Position numbers and translations under genes: made by a program. This document shows positions 50,238-63,651 of a stretch of 64,000 nucleotides of DNA, in pieces (positions within the stretch are counted from its first letter, which is position 1; the number at the start of each line of letters is the position of its first letter). The stretch is taken from positions 124,001 to 188,000 of the forward strand of contig NZ_WOWO01000004.1 of NCBI RefSeq assembly GCF_009831455.1. Reading direction: 5' to 3'. The notes under the pieces were generated by a model that did not search any database, was not told the DNA's origin, and saw only the letters and a program-made list of their open reading frames with translations. The stretch is from Salinirussus salinus (GTDB taxonomy: Archaea; Halobacteriota; Halobacteria; Halobacteriales; Haloarculaceae).

Positions 50238-50810
50238 GTGATCGACAGCATCCTCGACCGGTTCCAGCCGACGAAAAAGCGGCCGACGCCAGCCATGGAT
50301 ACGGTCGGCGACCGCGGCATCATCGGACAGCGCGGCGCCGCGGCGGCGATCGACCTCGTGATCTGCTATTTCCTCATCGAGACGCCGATACTGTACGTCG
50401 TCGACTTCCTCTTTCGGACCCGCGTCGACCAGCTGGGCGGGGTCGTCCTCGTCTCGGTGCTGCTCCTGTTCCCGCTGTATATCACCTACTCCTTCGGCTT
50501 CGAGTGGCGGTACGGCCGGACCCCCGGGAAAGTCAACCGCGGGCTGGTCGTCACTATGGAGGACGGGAGCCACTGCACGGGCCGGGCCAGCGCCGTGCGG
50601 AACATCCTCCGCTATATCGACCTGTTGCCGGTCGTGTTGCCCTACGCTGTCGGGGTCGCCGCCGCGGTCGTGACCGACGGCCGCCGGACCGGGGACCTGG
50701 CCGCCGACACCGTCGTCGTCCGCACCCGCGTCGAGGACCCGGCAGACCAGGCCGCCCGGGCCGACCTCGAGACCGACGCCGCCGCGAGACGCGACAGCCA
50801 GAGTAGCTGA
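50238..50810 (+). CDS. RDD-family membrane protein
   Basis: Encodes 190 residues from a GTG. Three membrane helices are predicted. The family triad is recognisable: RGAAAAIDLVICY (Arg-Asp at the first helix) and RTPGKVNRGLVV after the second, then LRYIDLLPVVLPY. RDD proteins probably transport small molecules or ions; some exchange Na+/Li+ for H+. The acidic tail ends QSS. It converges with the ABC transporter ATPase gene. Confidence 0.88.
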   Translation: MIDSILDRFQPTKKRPTPAMDTVGDRGIIGQRGAAAAIDLVICYFLIETPILYVVDFLFRTRVDQLGGVVLVSVLLLFPLYITYSFGFEWRYGRTPGKVNRGLVVTMEDGSHCTGRASAVRNILRYIDLLPVVLPYAVGVAAAVVTDGRRTGDLAADTVVVRTRVEDPADQAARADLETDAAARRDSQSS

Positions 50811-50905: not shown

Positions 50906-52003
50906 TCAGGCGACGCGGTCGCCGGAGACGGGGTCGAACAGCCGGACGTAGTTCTCGTCGATCACCAGCCCGTACTCGCCCTCCCGGCCCTCGAAGTCGG
51001 GGTCCGTGACGACGATGACCTCGCCGAACTCGGTGTCGAAGAAGCTGTGGGTCTCGTCGCCGAGCGGTTCGTCGAGGATGTGGGTCGCGTTGATCCCCTC
51101 GTTGGGGTCGTCGCTGACCCGGATGTGCTGGGGGCGGATCCCCACCCGGATGTCGTGTTCGCCCTCGCCGTAGCCGTTGAGGTCGGCGGAACTCATCGAG
51201 AGGTCGAACTCCATATCCGAGATGGTCAGCGACGTCGAGCCGTTCTGTGCGGCCAGCCGGCCGTCGAAGAACTGCGTCGAGGGCTGCCCGATGAAGCTGC
51301 TGACGAACTCCGAGTCGGGGTCCTCGTAGACCACCTTCGGCGGGTCGACCTGCTCGAGGTTGCCGTCGTTGATGATCGCCACGCGGTCGGACATCGTCAT
51401 CGCCTCCTCCTGGTCGTGAGTGACATACAGCGTCGGACAGCCGATCTCGTCGGTGACCTGCTCGATGACCGGCCGGAGTTCGGCCTTGAGCTTGGCGTCC
51501 AGGTCCGACATCGGCTCGTCGAACAGGAACACTTCGGGGTCCCGGACCAGCGACCGCCCCAGCGCGACGCGCTGTTGCTGGCCGCCGGAGAGCTCTGCGG
51601 GGCTCTTGTCGAGCTGGTCGCTGATCTGCAACAGCTTGGCGGCCTCCTCGACGCGGGCGTACCGCTCCTCGCGGGAGAACCCGCGGATCTTCAGCCCGTA
51701 GGCCATGTTGTCCCGCACGCTCATGTGCGGGTACAGCGCGATGTCCTGGAAGAGCAGGGCGATGTCGCGCTCCTGGACCGGGAGGTTCGTGACCTCGCGG
51801 TCGCCGAAGGTGATCGTCCCGCTGGTGGGCTTGTTGAGGCCGGCGACACACCGCAGCGTCGTGGTCTTGCCACAGCCCGACGGGCCGACCAGGGTCACGA
51901 ACTCGCCGTCGTCGATCGTGAGGTCGATGCCGTCGACCGCCACGATCTCGTCGTCGCCGTCCTGGTAGATCTTCGTCAGGTCTCTGATTTTGACGTCTGA
52001 CAT
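50906..52003 (-). CDS. sugar ABC transporter ATPase (MalK/UgpC type)
   Basis: Encodes 365 residues. Walker A GPSGCGKTT (40-48), Q-loop ALLFQDIALYPHMSV, ABC signature LSGGQQQR, Walker B LFDEPMSDLD and switch VTHDQEEAM are all present. The C-terminal MalK-type TOBE/OB domain of about 120 residues includes IRVGIRPQHI. It powers the two permeases encoded just upstream. Last gene in a five-gene minus-strand cluster. Confidence 0.94.
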   Translation of the reverse strand: MSDVKIRDLTKIYQDGDDEIVAVDGIDLTIDDGEFVTLVGPSGCGKTTTLRCVAGLNKPTSGTITFGDREVTNLPVQERDIALLFQDIALYPHMSVRDNMAYGLKIRGFSREERYARVEEAAKLLQISDQLDKSPAELSGGQQQRVALGRSLVRDPEVFLFDEPMSDLDAKLKAELRPVIEQVTDEIGCPTLYVTHDQEEAMTMSDRVAIINDGNLEQVDPPKVVYEDPDSEFVSSFIGQPSTQFFDGRLAAQNGSTSLTISDMEFDLSMSSADLNGYGEGEHDIRVGIRPQHIRVSDDPNEGINATHILDEPLGDETHSFFDTEFGEVIVVTDPDFEGREGEYGLVIDENYVRLFDPVSGDRVA

Positions 52004-52052: not shown

Positions 52053-52934
52053 TCACAGCGAGCGGATCTGGAACCCCTTCAGCAGGTAGCTCTGCATGAA
52101 GTACGCGAAGATCAGGGGTGGGAGCGTCATCGCCATCGAGACGGCCATGACGTCGACCCGCGCGATGTCGTAGCCGCGCTGGATGAGCCGGAACACGCCC
52201 GGCGCGAACGTCGACGCCTCGTTTGCCGGCAACAGGATCTGGGCGAACGTGAAGTCGTTCCAGGCCAGCGCGAAGGCAAACAGCGCGGCGGCGATGATCG
52301 CCGGCTGGGTCTGCGGGATGATGATGTCCCGGAAGCCCTGCCAGCGCGAGGCGCCCGCGACCCAGGCGCTCTCCTCCATCGCCTCCGGAATTGTCTGGAT
52401 GTACTTCCACATCAACCACACCGCGAAGGGCATCGATATCGCCGTCAGCGCGATGATCAGTCCCAGCCGGGTGTTCAGCAGCCCGAGGTTCTGCCAGATG
52501 AGGTACAGCGGCACCCCGAGGACGATCGGGCTGAACAGGTACCCCAGCAGGAGAAACCGTGCGAAGTTCTCCTTCTGGGGCATGTTGAACCGGGCCAGCC
52601 CGTAGCCCGCGATCAGCGAGATCAGCACCACGAGGATGATCGTCCCGAGCGTGACGACGACAGAGTTGATGACGTACAGCGCGACGTCGGGGTTCGTGAG
52701 CACCTCGTAGTTCTCGAGGGTGAACGTCTCCGGGGTCGGGAACCAGGAGATACCGCTGCTGCTGGCTCGCGCCCGGGTCGTCAGCGACGCCTGGAGCATC
52801 CAGTAGATCGGGAAGACCCCGACGACGACGAAGACGGCTGCGCTGATCTGCTTGAGACGGGAGAACAGCTTCTCCTCGGCCCGGTAGCCGAGCCCGAAGA
52901 TGCCGTCCGTGTCGGATGGTGTGTCGGTGCTCAT
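52053..52934 (-). CDS. sugar ABC transporter permease (MalG type)
   Basis: Encodes 293 residues with six membrane helices. The inner-membrane EAA loop that contacts the ATPase is EAMEESAWVAGASRWQGFRDI. The start overlaps the stop of the partner permease by 4 bases. Together they form the channel of a CUT1-type importer. Confidence 0.93.
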   Translation of the reverse strand: MSTDTPSDTDGIFGLGYRAEEKLFSRLKQISAAVFVVVGVFPIYWMLQASLTTRARASSSGISWFPTPETFTLENYEVLTNPDVALYVINSVVVTLGTIILVVLISLIAGYGLARFNMPQKENFARFLLLGYLFSPIVLGVPLYLIWQNLGLLNTRLGLIIALTAISMPFAVWLMWKYIQTIPEAMEESAWVAGASRWQGFRDIIIPQTQPAIIAAALFAFALAWNDFTFAQILLPANEASTFAPGVFRLIQRGYDIARVDVMAVSMAMTLPPLIFAYFMQSYLLKGFQIRSL

Positions 52935-53890
52935 GTCGACGTCTCCACCTCCTCACTCGGGTTGAACAGGATGAAGTACGCGACGGCGCCGATGCCCAGG
53001 AACAGGAACATGACGACCGCGAGCGCGTTCGCGAGCCCGTAGTTCCCGCCGGTGAAGGCCGTCTCGTAGGCCAGGATGGGCAGGGTCGTCGTCGCGCTGC
53101 CCGGGCCGCCCTGCGTGAGCACCCAGATGATGTCGAACTTGTTGAACATGAAGATCGAGCGCAGGAGGACCGCGACGAGGATGACCCCCTGGATCCGCGG
53201 GAGCGTGATGTCCCGGAACATCTGCAGCCGGTTGGCCCCGCAGATCTGTGCGGCTTCATAGAACCGGTCGGGAATGGCCCGCAGCTGGGCGAGCGCGAAG
53301 ATGGTGATGAAGACACCGAACTTCCAGGTCCCGACGAGGATCAAAAGCGGCATCGCCCACGTCTGGCTGAAGGTCATCGGCGCCGTGTTCCCGGCCCACA
53401 GGCCGAAGTCACTTCCCAGCGACTGGAGCACACCGAGCCCGATGTTCGGGGTGAACATGTAGCCGGCGACGAACGCCAGAATGATCGTCGGGATGAGGTA
53501 GGCGGTGAAGACGACCGCGGTCAGGAATTTCTGCCCACGTGCGATCTTGTTCAGCGCGAGCGCGAGCCACAGCCCGACGCCGAGCTGGATCAGCGTGCTC
53601 CCCACCATGTAGATGATCCCGCGCCACAGCGAGCCCCAGAACGTCTCGAGTTCGAACACTTCGTAGTAGTTCTGGAGTCCGGCCCACTCCCACTGCGGGT
53701 TCAGCAGGAACACCTCGTGGAAGGAAGCGTTCACCGCGTACGCGACCGGGCCGATCGCGATAATGAAATACAGGATCAGGACAGGAAGGACCGACGCGTA
53801 CCCGATGAGCGTCTCCTTGCTGACCGGTAACCGGTGCCACGGAATGGTCGGTTCGTCAGTCTGCGTTGGTTCGAGTGTTTCACCAGCCAC
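52931..53890 (-). CDS. sugar ABC transporter permease (MalF type)
   Basis: Encodes 319 residues from a GTG. Six membrane helices; the EAA loop reads DRFYEAAQICGANRLQMFRDI. A TATA-like stretch (GTTTAATATATC on this strand, about 53921-53932) lies some 30-40 bases upstream, so the permeases and ATPase may be transcribed separately from the binding-protein genes. The operator palindrome found at those genes is absent here. The N terminus before the first helix is short, unlike the enterobacterial MalF. Confidence 0.92.
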   Translation of the reverse strand: MAGETLEPTQTDEPTIPWHRLPVSKETLIGYASVLPVLILYFIIAIGPVAYAVNASFHEVFLLNPQWEWAGLQNYYEVFELETFWGSLWRGIIYMVGSTLIQLGVGLWLALALNKIARGQKFLTAVVFTAYLIPTIILAFVAGYMFTPNIGLGVLQSLGSDFGLWAGNTAPMTFSQTWAMPLLILVGTWKFGVFITIFALAQLRAIPDRFYEAAQICGANRLQMFRDITLPRIQGVILVAVLLRSIFMFNKFDIIWVLTQGGPGSATTTLPILAYETAFTGGNYGLANALAVVMFLFLGIGAVAYFILFNPSEEVETST

Positions 53891-54102
53891 GTATTGCCAC
53901 CTACCAGTGCCTCACCGTGAAGATATATTAAACTCACGACTGTCGGACCGACGAGTGTCAACGAGCCACAAGACAGCCGCGCCGTCCCCGGATTCGCCTG
54001 TCTGTCGTCAGCCACGAGGTGCGCAGTGCGCGCCCGTTGTGTGGCGCCAGCGCCGCCGCTCCTCCCGGGAGAAAAACAGAAAGTGCCGTGCGCGATCGGG
54101 GT

Positions 54103-55557
54103 TCAGCGGAAGCGGTTGCGGCCCTCTTCGAGCCGGGTCATGAGGCGGTCACGACCCCACTCGTAGGCCTCCTGCACCGAGTCCGAGCCGGTGACGACGC
54201 GGTTGACCATCTCGCCGTGGAACCACTGACGCTGCACGTACAGGAACACCGGGTCGTTGACGTTCGACTCGGGCACCTGGCCGTAGTGCTCCCCGAAGTG
54301 GACGTTCTGGATTTTCACCAATTCGTCGAGGAGCTGCTGGTTCTCGCCTTGGTCCCAGAAGCCAAAGCCCTGGAAGGTGTCGCTTTCGAGGATGTCGGCG
54401 TAGATGGGGAGGAACCGGGTGGGCTCCTGCTGGTACATGTTCGCCGACCGTTCGAGGCTGCTGCCGTAGCAGTACTCCATCCACTGGCGGGCGCCGGGGG
54501 TGTTGTCCCCGCCCGCGAAGATGTGGTGGCCGTCCGGCGTCGGCTCGTACAGCCAGGAATCGCCCTTGCTGACCCCGCCCTCTTCCCAGTAGGGGTTGAA
54601 CGCGGTCTTGGTGTTGTAGGCGATCTCCGGGATGTCGGAGGCGGCGGCGATGCCTGCGGGCCAGTGGTTGAGGTGGTACTGCTGGGCGAACTGCCCGCCG
54701 AGCCAGTTCGAGATCGACGACGACCAGCCCAGCGATGTCGGGTCCGGCGAGTACTGGGAGATGTCCTTGAAGAACTGCAGCAGCGTCGTGACCTCTTCCT
54801 CCGGGAAGTAGGCCTCGACTTCGTTGCGGGCGTCGGGGTCCTTCCAGCGCACGCCGACCCCAGGGACGCCCATCTGGGACAGGTAGACCTGGAACTCGTC
54901 CTGGCTTTTGCCGACCTTCTTGCCGGCCAGCCCGTACCCCCGGATGTCCAGGTCGGACTCGTCGATCACCCGCGCGTTCTCCAGCAGTTGCGCGAACGAG
55001 GTGGGTACGTCAAGCCCGAGTTCCTCGTAGACGTCCTCCCGGTAGTGGAAGTTCGACACGTAGTAGCCGTGGGGCACCTGCCAGATGTCGTCGTCCACCG
55101 TCAGCGGGGTCGAGAGGAGTTCACCGTTGGTCGATTCGGCAGCCTCGACGACCCCGTTGGTCGTCGCGAGCCCGTCGGTCGACCAGACGTCGGCCACCTG
55201 GTCGAACGTCGACGTGTTGATGTCCGGGGGGTTGCCGGACTGGATCAGTGTCGCCAGCCGGTTTTCCTGTTGCCCGGACATCCCCGAGTACTCGATGTTC
55301 ACGCCGATGTCCGTCTCGTCGGTGAACGAGGAAGACAGGCTGTCCCACTTGGCCTGCCACGGTTCGTTGTTGTAGTCCGTCAGCATGAACACGTCAGGCA
55401 ACTGCGTCGGGTCGCCCCCGCCGCCGTTGCCGCCGTTACCGTTGCCGCCCCCGTTGCCACCGCCACCGAGACAGCCGGCCATCATCGCCGCTACTCCCGC
55501 GCCCGTCCCTTGCAGCACCCGCCGTCGGCTGGTATCGCTGAGCTGTTTCCTGGTCAT
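54103..55557 (-). CDS. sugar-binding lipoprotein, copy 1
   Basis: Encodes 484 residues from ATG 55557. The twin-arginine lipoprotein signal (TSRRRVLQGTGAG...MAGC) is followed by a Gly/Asn linker (GGGNGGGNGNGG). The mature part is a family 1 extracellular binding protein: SSFTDETDIGVNIEYSG, FDQVADVWSTDGL, and TRFLPIYADILE near the end. It shares most of its length with the neighbour at 55733, including long identical runs such as the region around QQENRLATLIQ. A GTG three codons upstream is an alternative start. It captures the sugar outside the cell and delivers it to the permeases. Confidence 0.93.
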   Translation of the reverse strand: MTRKQLSDTSRRRVLQGTGAGVAAMMAGCLGGGGNGGGNGNGGNGGGGDPTQLPDVFMLTDYNNEPWQAKWDSLSSSFTDETDIGVNIEYSGMSGQQENRLATLIQSGNPPDINTSTFDQVADVWSTDGLATTNGVVEAAESTNGELLSTPLTVDDDIWQVPHGYYVSNFHYREDVYEELGLDVPTSFAQLLENARVIDESDLDIRGYGLAGKKVGKSQDEFQVYLSQMGVPGVGVRWKDPDARNEVEAYFPEEEVTTLLQFFKDISQYSPDPTSLGWSSSISNWLGGQFAQQYHLNHWPAGIAAASDIPEIAYNTKTAFNPYWEEGGVSKGDSWLYEPTPDGHHIFAGGDNTPGARQWMEYCYGSSLERSANMYQQEPTRFLPIYADILESDTFQGFGFWDQGENQQLLDELVKIQNVHFGEHYGQVPESNVNDPVFLYVQRQWFHGEMVNRVVTGSDSVQEAYEWGRDRLMTRLEEGRNRFR

Positions 55558-55563
55558 ATCGGT

Positions 55564-55582
55564 CACGTCACTGTGTGACGTG
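55564..55582. promoter_or_regulatory. candidate operator, binding-protein copy 1
   Basis: CACGTCACTGTGTGACGTG is a perfect 8-bp inverted repeat with a 3-base spacer. It covers the predicted transcription start, about 7 bases ahead of the ATG, so a bound repressor would block initiation. Confidence 0.65.
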
Positions 55583-55600
55583 TTGCCAGTGAGTGGGGTC

Positions 55601-55610
55601 GTTAATAAAT
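55601..55610 (-). promoter_or_regulatory. TATA box, binding-protein copy 1
   Basis: On the minus strand ATTTATTAAC, preceded by GAAG. It is followed about 27 bases downstream by the operator palindrome. Confidence 0.65.
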
Positions 55611-55732
55611 CTTCGTCCGATTTGTGCTGATTTTACATGATTGGGTGTGCGGCCGGTCATCCCAGGGACAGACGAGTGCGCCAGCGGCGGCTGTTCGGGG
55701 ACGAAACGCGAGGAAGATACCGCGAACTGGGG

Positions 55733-57178
55733 TTAGCGGAAGCGGTTGCGACCCTCTTCGAGCCGGGTCTCGAGGCGGTCGCGACCCCACTCGTAGGCCT
55801 CCTGCACCGAGTCCGTACCCGTGATGACGCGGTTGATCAGCTCGCCGTAGAACCACTGCCGGGTGACGTACAGCGCCACCGGGTCGTTGAGGTCCGACTC
55901 GGGCACCTGGCCGTAGTGGTCACCGATGATGGTCTCCTGGGTGTACTGCAGCTGCTCCAGGAGCTTCTGGTTCTCGCCCTGCTGCCAGAAGTCGTAGCCG
56001 GTGAAGGTATCGCTGGTGAGGATGTCCTCGTAGATGGGGAGGAACCGGGTGGGCTCGGCCTGGTAGATGCCCGCGGTCCGTTCGAGGCTGTCGCCGTAGA
56101 CGTACTCGAGCCACTCCCGTGCGCCGGGGGTGTTGTCCCCGCCCGCGAAGATGTGGTGGCCGTCGACCGTCGGGTCGAACAGCCAGGAGTCGCCCTGGCT
56201 GGCGCCACCCTCTTCCCAGTAGGGCAGGGGCGCGATACCGGTGTTGTAGGCGACCTCCGGGATGTCGGAGGCGGCGGCGATGCCCGCCGGCCACGTGTTC
56301 AGGTGGTACTGCTGGGCGAACTGCCCGCCGAGGTAGTTCGAGATCGACGACGACCAGCCCAGCGACGTCGGGTCCGGTGAGTACTCCGAGAGCTGGTTGA
56401 AGAACTCAAGCAGCGTGGTGATCTCCTCCTCGGGCCACCAGACCTCGAGTTCGTTGCGTGCGTCGGGGTCTTTCCACCGCAGGCCGATGGTGGAGACACC
56501 CATCTGACCCAGGTAGGACTGGAACTCGTCCTGGCTCTTGCCGGTCTTCTGGCCCGCCAGCCCGTACCCCCGGATCTCGATGTTCGAGTTGTCGATCGCC
56601 CGCGCGTTGTCGATGAGTCCCTGGAAGGACGTCGGAACGCTCAGGCCGAGTTCCTCGTAGACGTCCTCCCGGTAGTTGAACGTCGAGGTGTAGTAGCCGT
56701 GGGGCACCTGCCAGATGTCGTCGTCGACAGTGAGCGGGCTGGCGATCAGCTCGCCGTTGACCGACTCGGCGGCCTCCACCACCTCGTTGGTGGTGGTGAG
56801 CCCGTCGGTCGACCAGACGTCGGCCACCTGGTCGAACGTCGACGTGTTAATGTCCGGGGGGTTGCCGGACTGGATCAGCGTCGCCAGCCGGTTTTCCTGT
56901 TGCCCGGACATCCCCGAGTACTCGATGTTCATCCCGATGTCCGTCTCCTCCGTGAACGAGCCGGACAGGTCCTCCCACTGGGACTGCCACGGCTCGTTGT
57001 TGTAGTCCGTCAGCATGAAGACATCGGGCATGTCTGCGGGGTCGCCCCCGCCGCCGTTACCGTTGCCGCCCCCGTTGCCACCGCCGCCGAGACAGCCGGC
57101 CATCATCGCTGCCAGTCCTGCACCTGTTCCCTGCAACACCCGCCGCCGACTCGTACCGCTGAGCTGTTTCCTGGTCAT
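55733..57178 (-). CDS. sugar-binding lipoprotein, copy 2
   Basis: Encodes 481 residues with the same layout as copy 1: Tat lipoprotein signal, Gly/Asn linker and family 1 binding domain. Differences cluster in the middle and C-terminal lobes (for example YTSTFNY against YVSNFHY, and GLRWKDPDARNELEVWW against GVRWKDPDARNEVEAYF), which may alter the ligand. The 3' ends of both genes are also alike. A tandem duplication explains the pair. Copy 2 stands first in transcription order, with its own promoter and operator half-matching copy 1. Confidence 0.93.
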   Translation of the reverse strand: MTRKQLSGTSRRRVLQGTGAGLAAMMAGCLGGGGNGGGNGNGGGGDPADMPDVFMLTDYNNEPWQSQWEDLSGSFTEETDIGMNIEYSGMSGQQENRLATLIQSGNPPDINTSTFDQVADVWSTDGLTTTNEVVEAAESVNGELIASPLTVDDDIWQVPHGYYTSTFNYREDVYEELGLSVPTSFQGLIDNARAIDNSNIEIRGYGLAGQKTGKSQDEFQSYLGQMGVSTIGLRWKDPDARNELEVWWPEEEITTLLEFFNQLSEYSPDPTSLGWSSSISNYLGGQFAQQYHLNTWPAGIAAASDIPEVAYNTGIAPLPYWEEGGASQGDSWLFDPTVDGHHIFAGGDNTPGAREWLEYVYGDSLERTAGIYQAEPTRFLPIYEDILTSDTFTGYDFWQQGENQKLLEQLQYTQETIIGDHYGQVPESDLNDPVALYVTRQWFYGELINRVITGTDSVQEAYEWGRDRLETRLEEGRNRFR

Positions 57179-57181
57179 GGT

Positions 57182-57194
57182 GTCACTGTGTGAC
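57182..57194. promoter_or_regulatory. candidate operator, binding-protein copy 2
   Basis: GTCACTGTGTGAC, a 13-base palindrome, lies 3 bases ahead of the ATG. It is identical to the core of the copy 1 operator and is followed by the same GTG half-extension on one side. Confidence 0.65.
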
Positions 57195-57216
57195 GTGTAA
57201 CGGCAATCGGGGAACG

Positions 57217-57226
57217 TAGATAAATC
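57217..57226 (-). promoter_or_regulatory. TATA box, binding-protein copy 2
   Basis: On the minus strand GATTTATCTA preceded by GAA, with the same spacing to the palindrome as in copy 1. Confidence 0.65.
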
Positions 57227-57234
57227 TTCATTCT

Positions 57235-57697
57235 CACCACGACGCGTTCATGTCGTATATAATGTATAAACTAAGGAATCGTGTTCTAGTTTTCCACACA
57301 CTACGGCGCCATAGCGGTAGGCATTGTGTGCCGTGTTTTGTGGGAACACCAAACAAATATAAGAAGTATGTTATTATTGGGGGAAGCGGACCTGAGAAAA
57401 AACGTTGCTGTAGTTGTTGTCGTGTCACCCCACCGCCTGGCGAGCGGCCGGTGTGGCCTCGCCCGCCACGGTAGGCCGGCAGGAGCGGCCGGGCGCTGTG
57501 TCGTCACCGCGCGCTCGTGTCGCGGGACTCCGTCCTCGTTGCGGTACCCCTTCGTTTCCCCACCACTCCGGTCGCTGCCTGTCGGTTTCGGACCGCGATA
57601 ATCACGTTCACTCCGGTCAGGGTCCGGCGACCGGCGGCGGCCGCCACCCAGCGTGCGAAAGTTCTTGAACGGAGGGGGTCTAAGGATTCCCCAGTCA
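57235..57697. other. intergenic region with AT-rich island upstream of mcm
   Basis: No coding sequence is supported. Bases 57241-57420 are about 42 percent GC, far below the surroundings. They hold several TATA-like tracts (TATATAATGTATAAA near 57256; ATATAAG near 57357) and short inverted elements (TTTTCCACAC at 57290-57299 and TGTGGGAACAC at 57339-57349). From 57430 to mcm the DNA is GC-rich again; TCTAAGG about 28 bases ahead of the mcm ATG is its likely TATA box. Confidence 0.65.
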
Positions 57698-59794
57698 ATG
57701 GCCCGAGCGGAGGACACGGAACTCATCGACGTCTTCGAGGAGTTCTACCGGAGCTACTACCGCAACGAGATCGGGGAGCTCGCCCAGAAGTACCCCACCG
57801 AACAGAAGTCGCTGTACATCGACTGGGGTGACCTGTACCGGTTCGACCCCGACCTGGCCGACGACTTCCGCACCAAGCCCGACCAGCTGCGGGAGTACGC
57901 CGAGGAGGCGCTTCGCCTCTATGACCTCCCCGTCGACGTCTCGCTCGGGCAGGCACACGTCCGCGTGCGCGGACTCCCCGAGTCGACGGAGATCCGCGAC
58001 ATCAGGGCCGACAACCGTGGAGCCCTGCTCTCGGTCCAGGGGATCGTCCGCAAGGTGACGGAGGTCCGCCCGAAGGTGACAAACGCCGCCTTCGAGTGCC
58101 AGCGGTGTGGCACCCTCACCCGCATCCCCCAGTCGGACGGCGACTTCCAGGAGCCCCACGAGTGCCAGGGCTGTGAGCGGCAGGGGCCCTTCCGGGTGAA
58201 CTTCGACCAGTCCGAGTTCGTCGACGCACAGAAGCTGCGGGTCCAGGAGTCCCCCGAGGGGCTGCGCGGCGGGGAGACCCCCCAGGCGATCGACGTCAAC
58301 ATCGAGGACGACATCACCGGCGAGGTCACGGCCGGCGACCACGTCACCGTCACCGGCATCCTCAAACTCGACCAGCAGGGCTCGGACCGCGAGAAGTCGC
58401 CGATGTTCGACACCTACATGACCGGCCTGTCGGTGGAGATCGAGGACGAGCAGTTCGAGGAGATGGACATCTCCGAGAGCGACAAGACCGAGATCGTCGA
58501 ACTCTCGAACGACCCCGAGGTCTACGAGAAGATGGTCGGCGCCATCGCCCCCTCGATCTACGGCTACGAAATGGAGAAGCTCGCGATGGCGCTGCAACTG
58601 TTCTCGGGGGTCACCAAACACCTCCCCGACGGCTCCCGGCTCCGCGGAGACCTGCACATGCTCCTGATCGGGGACCCCGGAACTGGCAAATCGATGCTAC
58701 TCCAATATATTCGACAAATAGCCCCGAGATCAGTGTACACATCGGGGAAAGGATCCTCTGCTGCGGGGCTCACTGCGGCGGCCGTGCGCGACGACTTCGG
58801 CGACGGCCAGCAGTGGACTTTAGAGGCCGGCGCGCTGGTTTTGGCCGACCAGGGGATCGCGGCCGTCGACGAACTTGACAAGATGGCCCCGGACGACCGC
58901 AGCGCCATGCACGAAGCGCTCGAACAACAATCAATTTCCGTAAGTAAGGCAGGGATTAACGCAACGCTGAAAAGTCGGTGCTCCCTGCTGGGCGCCGCGA
59001 ACCCCAAGTACGGCCGGTTCGACCAGTACGAGCCCATCGGCGAGCAGATCGACCTCGAGCCCGCGCTCATCTCCCGCTTCGACCTGATCTTCACAGTCAC
59101 CGACCAGCCGGACCAGGAGGAAGACGCGCGCCTCGCCGAGCACATCCTCCAGACGAACTACGCGGGCGAGCTCAACACCCACCGGACGGAGACGACGGCC
59201 TCGAACTACACCGAGGAGGAGGTCGAGACGGTGACCGAGGAGGTGGCGCCGACCATCGAGCCCGACCTGCTGCGCAAGTACGTCGCCTACGCCAAGCGCA
59301 ACTGCTTCCCGACGATGACCGAGGAGGCCAAAGCCGAGATCCAGGACTTCTACGTCGACCTGCGAGCGGAGGGAACCGGCGACGACGCCCCCGTCCCGGT
59401 CACGGCCCGGAAGCTGGAAGCGCTGGTGCGGCTGGCGGAGGCCAGCGCCCGCGTTCGCCTCTCCGATACCGTCGAGAAGGAGGACGCCGAGCGGGCGACC
59501 GACATCGCCCGGTCGTCGATGGAGGACATCGGAATGGACCCCGAAACCGGGGAGTTCGACGCCGACGTCGTCGAGACCGGCACCTCGAAGAGCCAGCGCG
59601 ACCGCGTGAAGAACATCCTCGACCTGGTCGGGGAGATCGAGGAGGAGTACGACGAGGGCGCGCCGGTCGACGTCGTCGTCGAGCGCGCCGAGGAACAGGG
59701 GATAGAGCCCTCGAAGGCCGAACACGAGATCGAGCAACTCAAACAGAAAGGCGAGGTGTACACCCCGACGAAGGGACACCTCCGGACCACCTGA
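57698..59794 (+). CDS. mcm: replicative helicase MCM
   Basis: Encodes 698 residues from ATG 57698. The N-terminal domain holds a zinc site (Cys134, Cys137, Cys156, Cys159). The AAA+ core has Walker A GDPGTGKS (325-332), Walker B AAVDELDKM and the arginine-finger SRFD. A winged-helix end follows after about residue 620. No intein is present, although the Walker A and sensor regions are encoded by AT-rich, unusual codons (see findings). It forms the hexameric helicase at the fork. The next gene overlaps its stop codon. Confidence 0.97.
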   Translation: MARAEDTELIDVFEEFYRSYYRNEIGELAQKYPTEQKSLYIDWGDLYRFDPDLADDFRTKPDQLREYAEEALRLYDLPVDVSLGQAHVRVRGLPESTEIRDIRADNRGALLSVQGIVRKVTEVRPKVTNAAFECQRCGTLTRIPQSDGDFQEPHECQGCERQGPFRVNFDQSEFVDAQKLRVQESPEGLRGGETPQAIDVNIEDDITGEVTAGDHVTVTGILKLDQQGSDREKSPMFDTYMTGLSVEIEDEQFEEMDISESDKTEIVELSNDPEVYEKMVGAIAPSIYGYEMEKLAMALQLFSGVTKHLPDGSRLRGDLHMLLIGDPGTGKSMLLQYIRQIAPRSVYTSGKGSSAAGLTAAAVRDDFGDGQQWTLEAGALVLADQGIAAVDELDKMAPDDRSAMHEALEQQSISVSKAGINATLKSRCSLLGAANPKYGRFDQYEPIGEQIDLEPALISRFDLIFTVTDQPDQEEDARLAEHILQTNYAGELNTHRTETTASNYTEEEVETVTEEVAPTIEPDLLRKYVAYAKRNCFPTMTEEAKAEIQDFYVDLRAEGTGDDAPVPVTARKLEALVRLAEASARVRLSDTVEKEDAERATDIARSSMEDIGMDPETGEFDADVVETGTSKSQRDRVKNILDLVGEIEEEYDEGAPVDVVVERAEEQGIEPSKAEHEIEQLKQKGEVYTPTKGHLRTT

Positions 59795-62129: not shown

Positions 62130-62809
62130 CGCTGGCGGTCACCGCGGGGAAGGGCGGCGTCGGCAAGTCGACCGTCGCGTACAATCTGGGTGCGGAACTC
62201 GACGCCGTCGTCGTCGACGCGGACCTGGGGATGGCCGACCTCCCGGCCCGGCGGGGTCCGGACCTGCACGACGTGCTCGCCGGGCGGGCCGACGCCCTCG
62301 AGGCCGTCGACGAGGGAGGGCCGGTCGCGCTGCTCCCCTGCGGACGGTCGCTCGCGGGCGCCCGGGCAGCCGACGTCACTGCCCTCGCCGGGACGCTCGA
62401 TACCGTGAGTCGCCACTACGGCGAAGTCGTCGTCGACTGTCCCGCAGGACTGGGCAGCGATGCCGGCGTGGCGCTGCTCGCGGCCGAGGCCTGCCTGCTG
62501 GTGACACGGCCGACCGAGCCGGCGCTGGCCGGTGCGGTCCAGAGTCGCGAGCTGGCCCGTGTCCTCGGGACGCCGCTGGCACGGGTCGTCCTCAACAGGG
62601 CCGGCGAGGCGGCCACCCGCCCGGTCGCCGACGCGCTCGGCGCTCCGGTGACGACCGTTCCCGAGAGCGACGCGCTCGCGCGGGCACAGCGGGCCGGGCA
62701 GCCGGTGGGAGCTGTCGCACCGGACTCGCGGGCTGCCTCGCAGTTCCGGGCACTCGCGGACAGCGTCGGGCCGCTGCTCGACCGTCACTCCTCGCGCAGT
62801 TCGGTGTAG
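62126..62809 (+). CDS. MinD/ParA-like ATPase
   Basis: Encodes 227 residues, short for MinD. The deviant Walker A KGGVGKST at 9-16 starts right at the N terminus (TLAVTAGKGG); VVVDADLGMADLP and EVVVDCPAGL follow. The C-terminal membrane-targeting helix of bacterial MinD is absent. It might position or load a partner encoded upstream. The 3' end overlaps the convergent TFB gene by 25 bases, so expression of one could interfere with the other. Confidence 0.88.
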   Translation: MTLAVTAGKGGVGKSTVAYNLGAELDAVVVDADLGMADLPARRGPDLHDVLAGRADALEAVDEGGPVALLPCGRSLAGARAADVTALAGTLDTVSRHYGEVVVDCPAGLGSDAGVALLAAEACLLVTRPTEPALAGAVQSRELARVLGTPLARVVLNRAGEAATRPVADALGAPVTTVPESDALARAQRAGQPVGAVAPDSRAASQFRALADSVGPLLDRHSSRSSV

Positions 62810-63651
62810 GTCGCCCGCAGCGTCACCGGCGTCACGTCCGCGACCTCCGCCGCTGCTTCCTGTGTGAGCTCGCAGCCGAGCGCCCGCGCGGCGGTGTAGA
62901 GACAGGCCGCCGCGACGCCGCTTGGGTTGCGCCCGTTGTCGATCCCCTCCTCGCGGGCGCGGGCGGCGTACTCGCGGGCACGCCGCTCGACCTCGGTCGG
63001 GAGGTCCAGCCGGCTGGCGAAGCGGGCCAGGTACTCCGCGGGGTCGATCGGGCCGGTCGGCAGTCCGAGTTCACGGTTCATCGCGTCGTAGGCGGCGTCC
63101 AGTTCCGCCCGCGTCGCCGTGGCTGCCGCCACGACCTCCTCGACGGTCCGCGAGACCGACGCCGTCCGGCAGGTGGCGTAGACGGCCGCGGCGGCGAAGC
63201 CCTCGATCGACCGGCCCTGCAGGAGGCCGGCGTCCTGGGCGGACTCGAAGAGGACACACGACCGGTCGCGGACGTGCTCGGGCAGGTCGAGGTCGCCCAC
63301 GAGCCGGCGGATCTCGGTGAACGCGTAGACGCGGTTGCGCTCGGCCTTGGAGGCGATCTGGGCGCGCTTGTGCTGGCGGCGCATCCGTGCCACCCGGCGG
63401 CGCTTGCGCCCCTTCAGGCGGGTCGAGTGGCCGATCTCCGTCGAGAGCCCGCGGTCGTGGCGGGCCCGTGTCAGCGGCGCTCCGGTCCGCTCGGGCTGTG
63501 TTCGGTCGTCCTCGAACGAGCGCCACTCCGGACCCGGGTCGATGGCGTGCTCGTCGACGACGAGCCCACACTCCTGACAGACCGTCTCGCACTCCCCGGA
63601 CCGGAGCGAGCCGTTGCACTCGGGACAGGACTGGGTTGTCGTGGCTGCCAT
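62785..63651 (-). CDS. tfb: transcription initiation factor IIB
   Basis: Encodes 288 residues. The N-terminal zinc ribbon (Cys9, Cys12, Cys25, Cys28) and the B-finger region PEWRSFEDDRTQ precede two cyclin-like repeats (VYAFTEIRRLVGDL... and AEYLARFASRL...); the recognition helix end reads VADVTPVTLRATY. Haloarchaea carry several TFBs with different promoter preferences; this is one of them, and it is shorter than the roughly 320-residue general forms. TTTAAAA about 30 bases ahead of its ATG is the TATA box. Confidence 0.95.
   Translation of the reverse strand: MAATTTQSCPECNGSLRSGECETVCQECGLVVDEHAIDPGPEWRSFEDDRTQPERTGAPLTRARHDRGLSTEIGHSTRLKGRKRRRVARMRRQHKRAQIASKAERNRVYAFTEIRRLVGDLDLPEHVRDRSCVLFESAQDAGLLQGRSIEGFAAAAVYATCRTASVSRTVEEVVAAATATRAELDAAYDAMNRELGLPTGPIDPAEYLARFASRLDLPTEVERRAREYAARAREEGIDNGRNPSGVAAACLYTAARALGCELTQEAAAEVADVTPVTLRATYTELREE

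Follow-up and report, generated by a model that had tools for sequence, protein, structure and literature searches.

Tandem receptor genes of a CUT1-like importer in Salinirussus carry a conserved operator-like palindrome downstream of each TATA box

A CUT1-like importer with two receptor genes

The window, by which we mean the whole stretch of 64,000 nucleotides analysed here (G000:C4:124001-188000), is part of contig C4 in the 3.37-Mb genome of a haloarchaeon of the genus Salinirussus. It contains an ABC importer transcribed from the minus strand in the order binding protein copy 2, binding protein copy 1, permease 1, permease 2 and ATPase (Table 1). The open reading frames bear out a preliminary description of this DNA, which had placed two tandem binding proteins with a common Tat lipoprotein signal before a permease pair and an ATPase. 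Both receptors carry the leader SRRRVLQGTGAG..AAMMAGC, which combines the Tat signal and the lipobox, and the two proteins are 79% identical (copy 1 has 484 residues when read from the ATG that matches the start of copy 2). Permease 1 was also correctly described as having a TATA box of its own and no palindrome; its TATA-like box lies at about 53921-53931, and no palindromic element is found there.

Table 1. Features of the importer locus and its promoters (positions within the window)
Feature	Position	Strand	Basis
RDD-family membrane protein, convergent with the ATPase gene	50238..50810	+	PF06271; neighbour kept in Natrinema and other relatives (synteny)
ABC ATPase, UgpC/MalK-like	50906..52003	-	PF00005; NCBIfam best match UgpC subfamily, under its cut-off
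ABC permease 2	52053..52934	-	PF00528
ABC permease 1, own TATA-like box, without palindrome	52931..53890	-	PF00528; sequence
Binding protein copy 1, Tat lipoprotein, SBP_bac_1, 484 aa	54103..55557	-	ORF; Pfam PF01547 E 4e-12
Operator-like element ACACGTCACACAGTGAC, copy 1; symmetric arms reach 55564-55582	55567..55583	-	Alignment of four promoters
TATA/BRE block GAAGATTTAT, copy 1	55605..55614	-	Invariant in four promoters
Binding protein copy 2, first gene of array, Tat lipoprotein, 481 aa	55733..57178	-	ORF; 79% identity with copy 1
Operator-like element ACACGTCACACAGTGAC, copy 2; arms symmetric only 57182-57194	57182..57198	-	Alignment of four promoters
TATA/BRE block GAAGATTTAT, copy 2	57220..57229	-	Invariant in four promoters

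A profile search with the receptor matched 5ci5, 8vqk and 1eu8, and the best PDB match of its predicted fold was 1eu8 (TM-score 0.73 by target length; model mean pLDDT 66.7). This trehalose/maltose receptor of Thermococcus litoralis is the best solved match. By the profile search and a predicted fold of moderate confidence, the receptors group with CUT1 binding proteins. The remaining components are also of CUT1 type: besides a binding protein with a MalE-like fold (SBP_bac_1; PF01547 in copy 1, fold match 1eu8), the locus encodes two different permeases (PF00528 in each) and one MalK/UgpC-type ATPase (PF00005, with a weak TOBE_2 match in addition). The ATPase motif of CUT1 systems is quoted as G[IV]RPE[DH] (PMC11519228); the window ATPase reads GIRPQH, one residue off, and we therefore term the importer CUT1-like.

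Duplication and divergence of the receptors

Natrinema and other relatives have a single receptor, 53-55% identical to those in the window, in the same gene order, and the second copy is thus specific to the Salinirussus lineage. The nearest relative among the genomes compared is a MAG of the same genus, Salinirussus sp. LUM.44 (G001; L034, L035), with two contigs that are most likely haplotypes because both carry mcm and align at ~92% over 2.9 kb. Over the first 335 bases of the receptor gene, the window copies are 88.7% identical to each other and 85-88% identical to LUM.44. Given this slight excess of identity between the window copies, either the duplication dates from about the time of the split from LUM.44 or gene conversion has acted. 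Both LUM.44 contigs stop 335-345 bases into the receptor gene, within a stretch that is 97% identical between the window copies, which fits a break caused by the repeat.

The preliminary description had also suggested that diverged lobes of the two receptors may widen the range of sugars taken up, and this was not supported. The 96 differences between the copies (83.5% DNA identity) are scattered across most of the mature chain; nine of them, including W285Y and H298T, change residues that relatives conserve. The copies are under constraint (dN/dS 0.41) and evolve at equal rates according to relative-rate counts, which rule out asymmetric evolution of one copy.

A palindromic element downstream of each receptor TATA box

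Each receptor gene has its own TATA box, ATAAATC, at 55605-55611 (copy 1) and 57220-57226 (copy 2). Downstream of each lies GTCACACAGTGAC in the minus-strand reading (GTCACTGTGTGAC), at 55567-55579 and 57182-57194, and its offset from the TATA box is the same in both copies (55605-55579 = 57220-57194 = 26), in agreement with the arrangement first described. The palindrome of copy 1 had been called perfect over 19 bases; instead, two perfect 8-base arms (55564-55571 and 55575-55582) flank a TGT centre that is not palindromic. In copy 2 the symmetry is limited to 5-base arms.

A TATA box at about -26/-27 would put the start of transcription at the upstream edge of the palindrome, which would then cover approximately +1 to +15. 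The earlier claim that the palindrome covers the start thus stands for an overlap at this edge, with the start placed from the TATA box. Archaeal repressor sites are typically found downstream of the TATA box, overlapping the start, whereas activators normally bind upstream of BRE/TATA (PMC4158304, PMC10817205). The element, a conserved inverted repeat downstream of TATA that overlaps the TATA-derived start, has the layout of a repressor operator, and we favour a repressor site because a position just downstream of TATA matches that of archaeal repressor sites.

Conservation of the element

For footprinting, the two window promoters were aligned with the promoters of the orthologous receptor gene in the two LUM.44 haplotypes (A and B). 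The alignment contained two invariant blocks, GAAGATTTAT (BRE/TATA) and ACACGTCACACAGTGAC, the latter 17 contiguous bases long and located at a nearly constant distance of 24-25 bases from the TATA box in all four promoters. Only 19% of the remaining upstream columns were invariant. Outside the blocks, the window promoters are 27% identical to each other, and window copy 2 is 54-57% identical to LUM.44. By phylogenetic footprinting the element is real, and its assignment as an operator is well supported, although an initiator or a function in the 5′ leader could equally conserve bases that lie so near a conserved coding start.

Could the identity of the palindromes merely reflect the shared ancestry of a recent duplication, without any function? 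The two receptor genes did arise by tandem duplication (83.5% DNA identity), and the core promoter was copied with them. However, the upstream flanks in the window have diverged to the random level of 27%, which argues that the palindrome is not a mere leftover of duplication, and the 17 bases are intact in all four promoters, two of which belong to another lineage. We regard this explanation as highly improbable.

The arms of the palindrome bear on a second alternative, in which a hairpin in the 5′ leader (GUCAC ACA GUGAC) would control translation or stability of the receptor message. The leader of copy 1 can form an 8-bp stem directly before the start codon (-11.5 kcal/mol, z -2.2), and that of LUM.44 A reaches -11.3, whereas only 5 pairs of the stem remain in copy 2 and in LUM.44 B; the copy 2 leader is no more stable than its shuffles (z 0.0). 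Copy 1 and LUM.44 A have the right-arm extension GTG, which copy 2 and LUM.44 B lack; all four promoters retain the left extension ACAC, even where it has no pairing partner, and none shows a compensatory change. Because ACAC is always kept and GTG is missing from two promoters, an RNA hairpin is disfavoured as the conserved unit, and we consider RNA-level control quite unlikely.

Search for further sites and for a regulator

Pattern searches of the genome found the exact 13-mer only at the two receptor promoters, and the same was true of ACGTCACACAGTGAC. Of 146 genomes of the family, four contain ACGTCACACAGTGAC; two of these are Salinirussus, with two sites each, and only in these two is the element at the receptor locus. 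Symmetry by itself says little, since the genome has six occurrences of the generic palindrome GTCACNNNGTGAC. A genome-wide regulon was considered and rejected: scans allowing ≤3 mismatches returned 47 forward and 29 reverse sites, near the reversed control (26 and 36), and none of the inspected sites from these relaxed scans was clearly arranged as in a promoter or made a convincing third site. The preliminary description had counted a lack of further genomic occurrences against its proposal; the site is indeed confined to the two receptor promoters, but this agrees better with a regulator dedicated to one locus than with a regulon and does not refute the operator.

One sequence, GTCACAGAGTGAC (G000:C2:355447-355459; L001), places the core palindrome over the start-codon region of another ABC receptor lipoprotein gene. 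It falls within codons for SQSD, no orthologue of this receptor gene was found in LUM.44, and it may be a third site or a coding coincidence.

The preliminary description had envisaged a nearby regulator of the TrmB, IclR or GntR type, and none was found. Pfam scans of ten neighbouring genes between 42299 and 63651 turned up no HTH regulator apart from a TFIIB paralogue. The TrmB sensor domain PF11495 was absent from the whole genome, with Haloferax volcanii as a positive control. The genome has just two IclR genes, G000:C1:53557 and C3:771112, neither of them on contig C4, and one GntR gene above the cut-off, on a different contig; a sub-threshold GntR match at C4:122213, just before the window, is more than 50 kb away. 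With neither a linked regulator nor a convincing third site, there was no sign of an autoregulated repressor that uses the site; most simply, these results point to an unlinked regulator dedicated to this locus. The TFIIB (TFB) gene (62785-63651) lies beyond mcm, ~5.6 kb from the receptor genes.

Proposed control of the receptor genes

We propose, as the rather probable reading, a CUT1-like importer whose receptor gene and core promoter were duplicated in tandem and in which a putative dimeric, unlinked factor represses both copies from the palindrome. The binding-protein gene would have been duplicated together with its core promoter within the Salinirussus lineage, leaving each receptor copy to be driven by its own TATA box. 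A dimeric transcription factor encoded elsewhere would bind the imperfect palindrome (A)CACGTCAC-ACA-GTGAC at each transcript start and block recruitment of RNA polymerase until an inducer frees the site, and both receptors would therefore be switched together. We infer protein binding, repression over activation, the inducer and joint regulation of the receptors. Of the operator proposed in the preliminary description, the operator-like element is upheld by conservation in the sister MAG amid diverged flanks, while repression is argued from position.

The main rival to repression is that the element is an activator site or a strong initiator/core-promoter element, since XacR, GacR, RhcR and MscR, the haloarchaeal IclR-type regulators of sugar catabolism, are activators (PMC11519228). 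This counts against the repressor model, as do the presence of the element at this locus in only two Salinirussus genomes and the fact that the LUM.44 contigs break off within the receptor gene. Moreover, the element occupies the initiator position, and relatives have a different conserved block, TTAGCANTG, in a similar place. Activator sites are, however, usually located upstream of BRE/TATA (PMC4158304, PMC10817205), and a general initiator would be expected to recur throughout the genome, which the 13-mer does not. Activation or core-promoter function thus stays a live rival, if an unlikely one.

Repression from the palindrome would resemble the sugar ABC operons of Thermococcales under TrmB, TrmBL1 or Tgr, in which a palindrome likewise lies at BRE/TATA or at the start of a CUT1-type binding-protein gene and repression operates by blocking RNA polymerase recruitment (PMC4158304). 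The known sites are TACT-N3-AGTA at malE, the TGM TATCAC-N5-GTGATA and TACT-N7/8-GAGTA (PMC4158304). The Salinirussus site, GTCAC-N3-GTGAC, matches none of these three motifs, and the locus further differs from TrmB-type operons in the absence of PF11495, the lack of a linked regulator and the presence of two receptor genes. MscEFGK/MscR of Haloarcula hispanica and XacGHIJK/XacR of Haloferax volcanii are alike in having a binding protein, two permeases and a MalK/UgpC-like ATPase, and in substrate-specific control. In those systems MscR and XacR act as activators, and the msc cluster contains mscR along with the genes for transport and catabolism (PMC11519228), whereas the Salinirussus importer has no IclR or other regulator gene and no catabolic genes beside it, and its receptor is duplicated.

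The type of control is ordinary, and the operator, itself new, is well supported. To our knowledge, few operators of haloarchaeal transport genes have been defined. At 17 conserved bases, present twice and only at this locus, the operator is sharply delimited and offers a clean handle for fishing the regulator.

Related loci and the substrate

Relatives with one receptor keep the order binding protein, permease, permease, ATPase with the convergent RDD gene. Among them, Natrinema ejinorense (L032), N. salsiterrestre (L033) and L073-L078, with receptors ~53-55% identical, differ from Salinirussus in their single receptor, in another promoter block and, in most cases, in genes of acyl-CoA metabolism close by. 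Their promoters (L032, L033, L073-L076, L078) have a different conserved block downstream of TATA in place of the palindrome, TTTATATG followed after about 14-18 bases by TTAGCANTG. This suggests that the promoter control of the transporter has turned over.

An acyl-CoA ligase and related genes were found near the transporter in 8 of 10 relatives' 18-kb loci (L072-L076, L078, L083, L084), a count to which the loci do not contribute independently because they are mutually related. Varying sets of acyl-CoA dehydrogenase, MaoC/FAS1-like dehydratase, enoyl-CoA hydratase, thiolase, SDR and one MFS family accompany the ligase at the eight loci. In 20 control windows, largely from the same genomes, neither ligase nor dehydrogenase occurred, and only one SDR was seen. 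The association is not universal: the cluster is missing at L077, L079 and in Salinirussus itself, where a search of the genome found the MFS marker but none of the remaining cluster genes adjacent to it. No relevant report of haloarchaeal transporters of this kind next to acyl-CoA genes came up in a literature search.

The substrate was originally labelled as sugar. Family and fold are indeed sugar-binding, yet the conserved neighbourhood in relatives is one of acyl-CoA chemistry, and with such genes at 8 of 10 loci "sugar" is an unproven family label. From these neighbourhoods, the imported compound may be something other than a simple sugar. A more specific combination, in which a so far undescribed haloarchaeal repressor acts at a single locus with two operators and the diverged receptors import a non-sugar, CoA-activated compound through a CUT1 architecture, seems to us doubtful. 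Caution is warranted for the clade as a whole: its transporters are called sugar importers by family, and with a conserved acyl-CoA neighbourhood the substrate of the entire clade may be misassigned.

In the window, the mcm helicase gene that neighbours the receptor genes (57653-59794) is free of large insertions. In LUM.44, mcm (L034:3-4820, L035:3-3197) contains large in-frame insertions that resemble inteins, two in one haplotype and one in the other.
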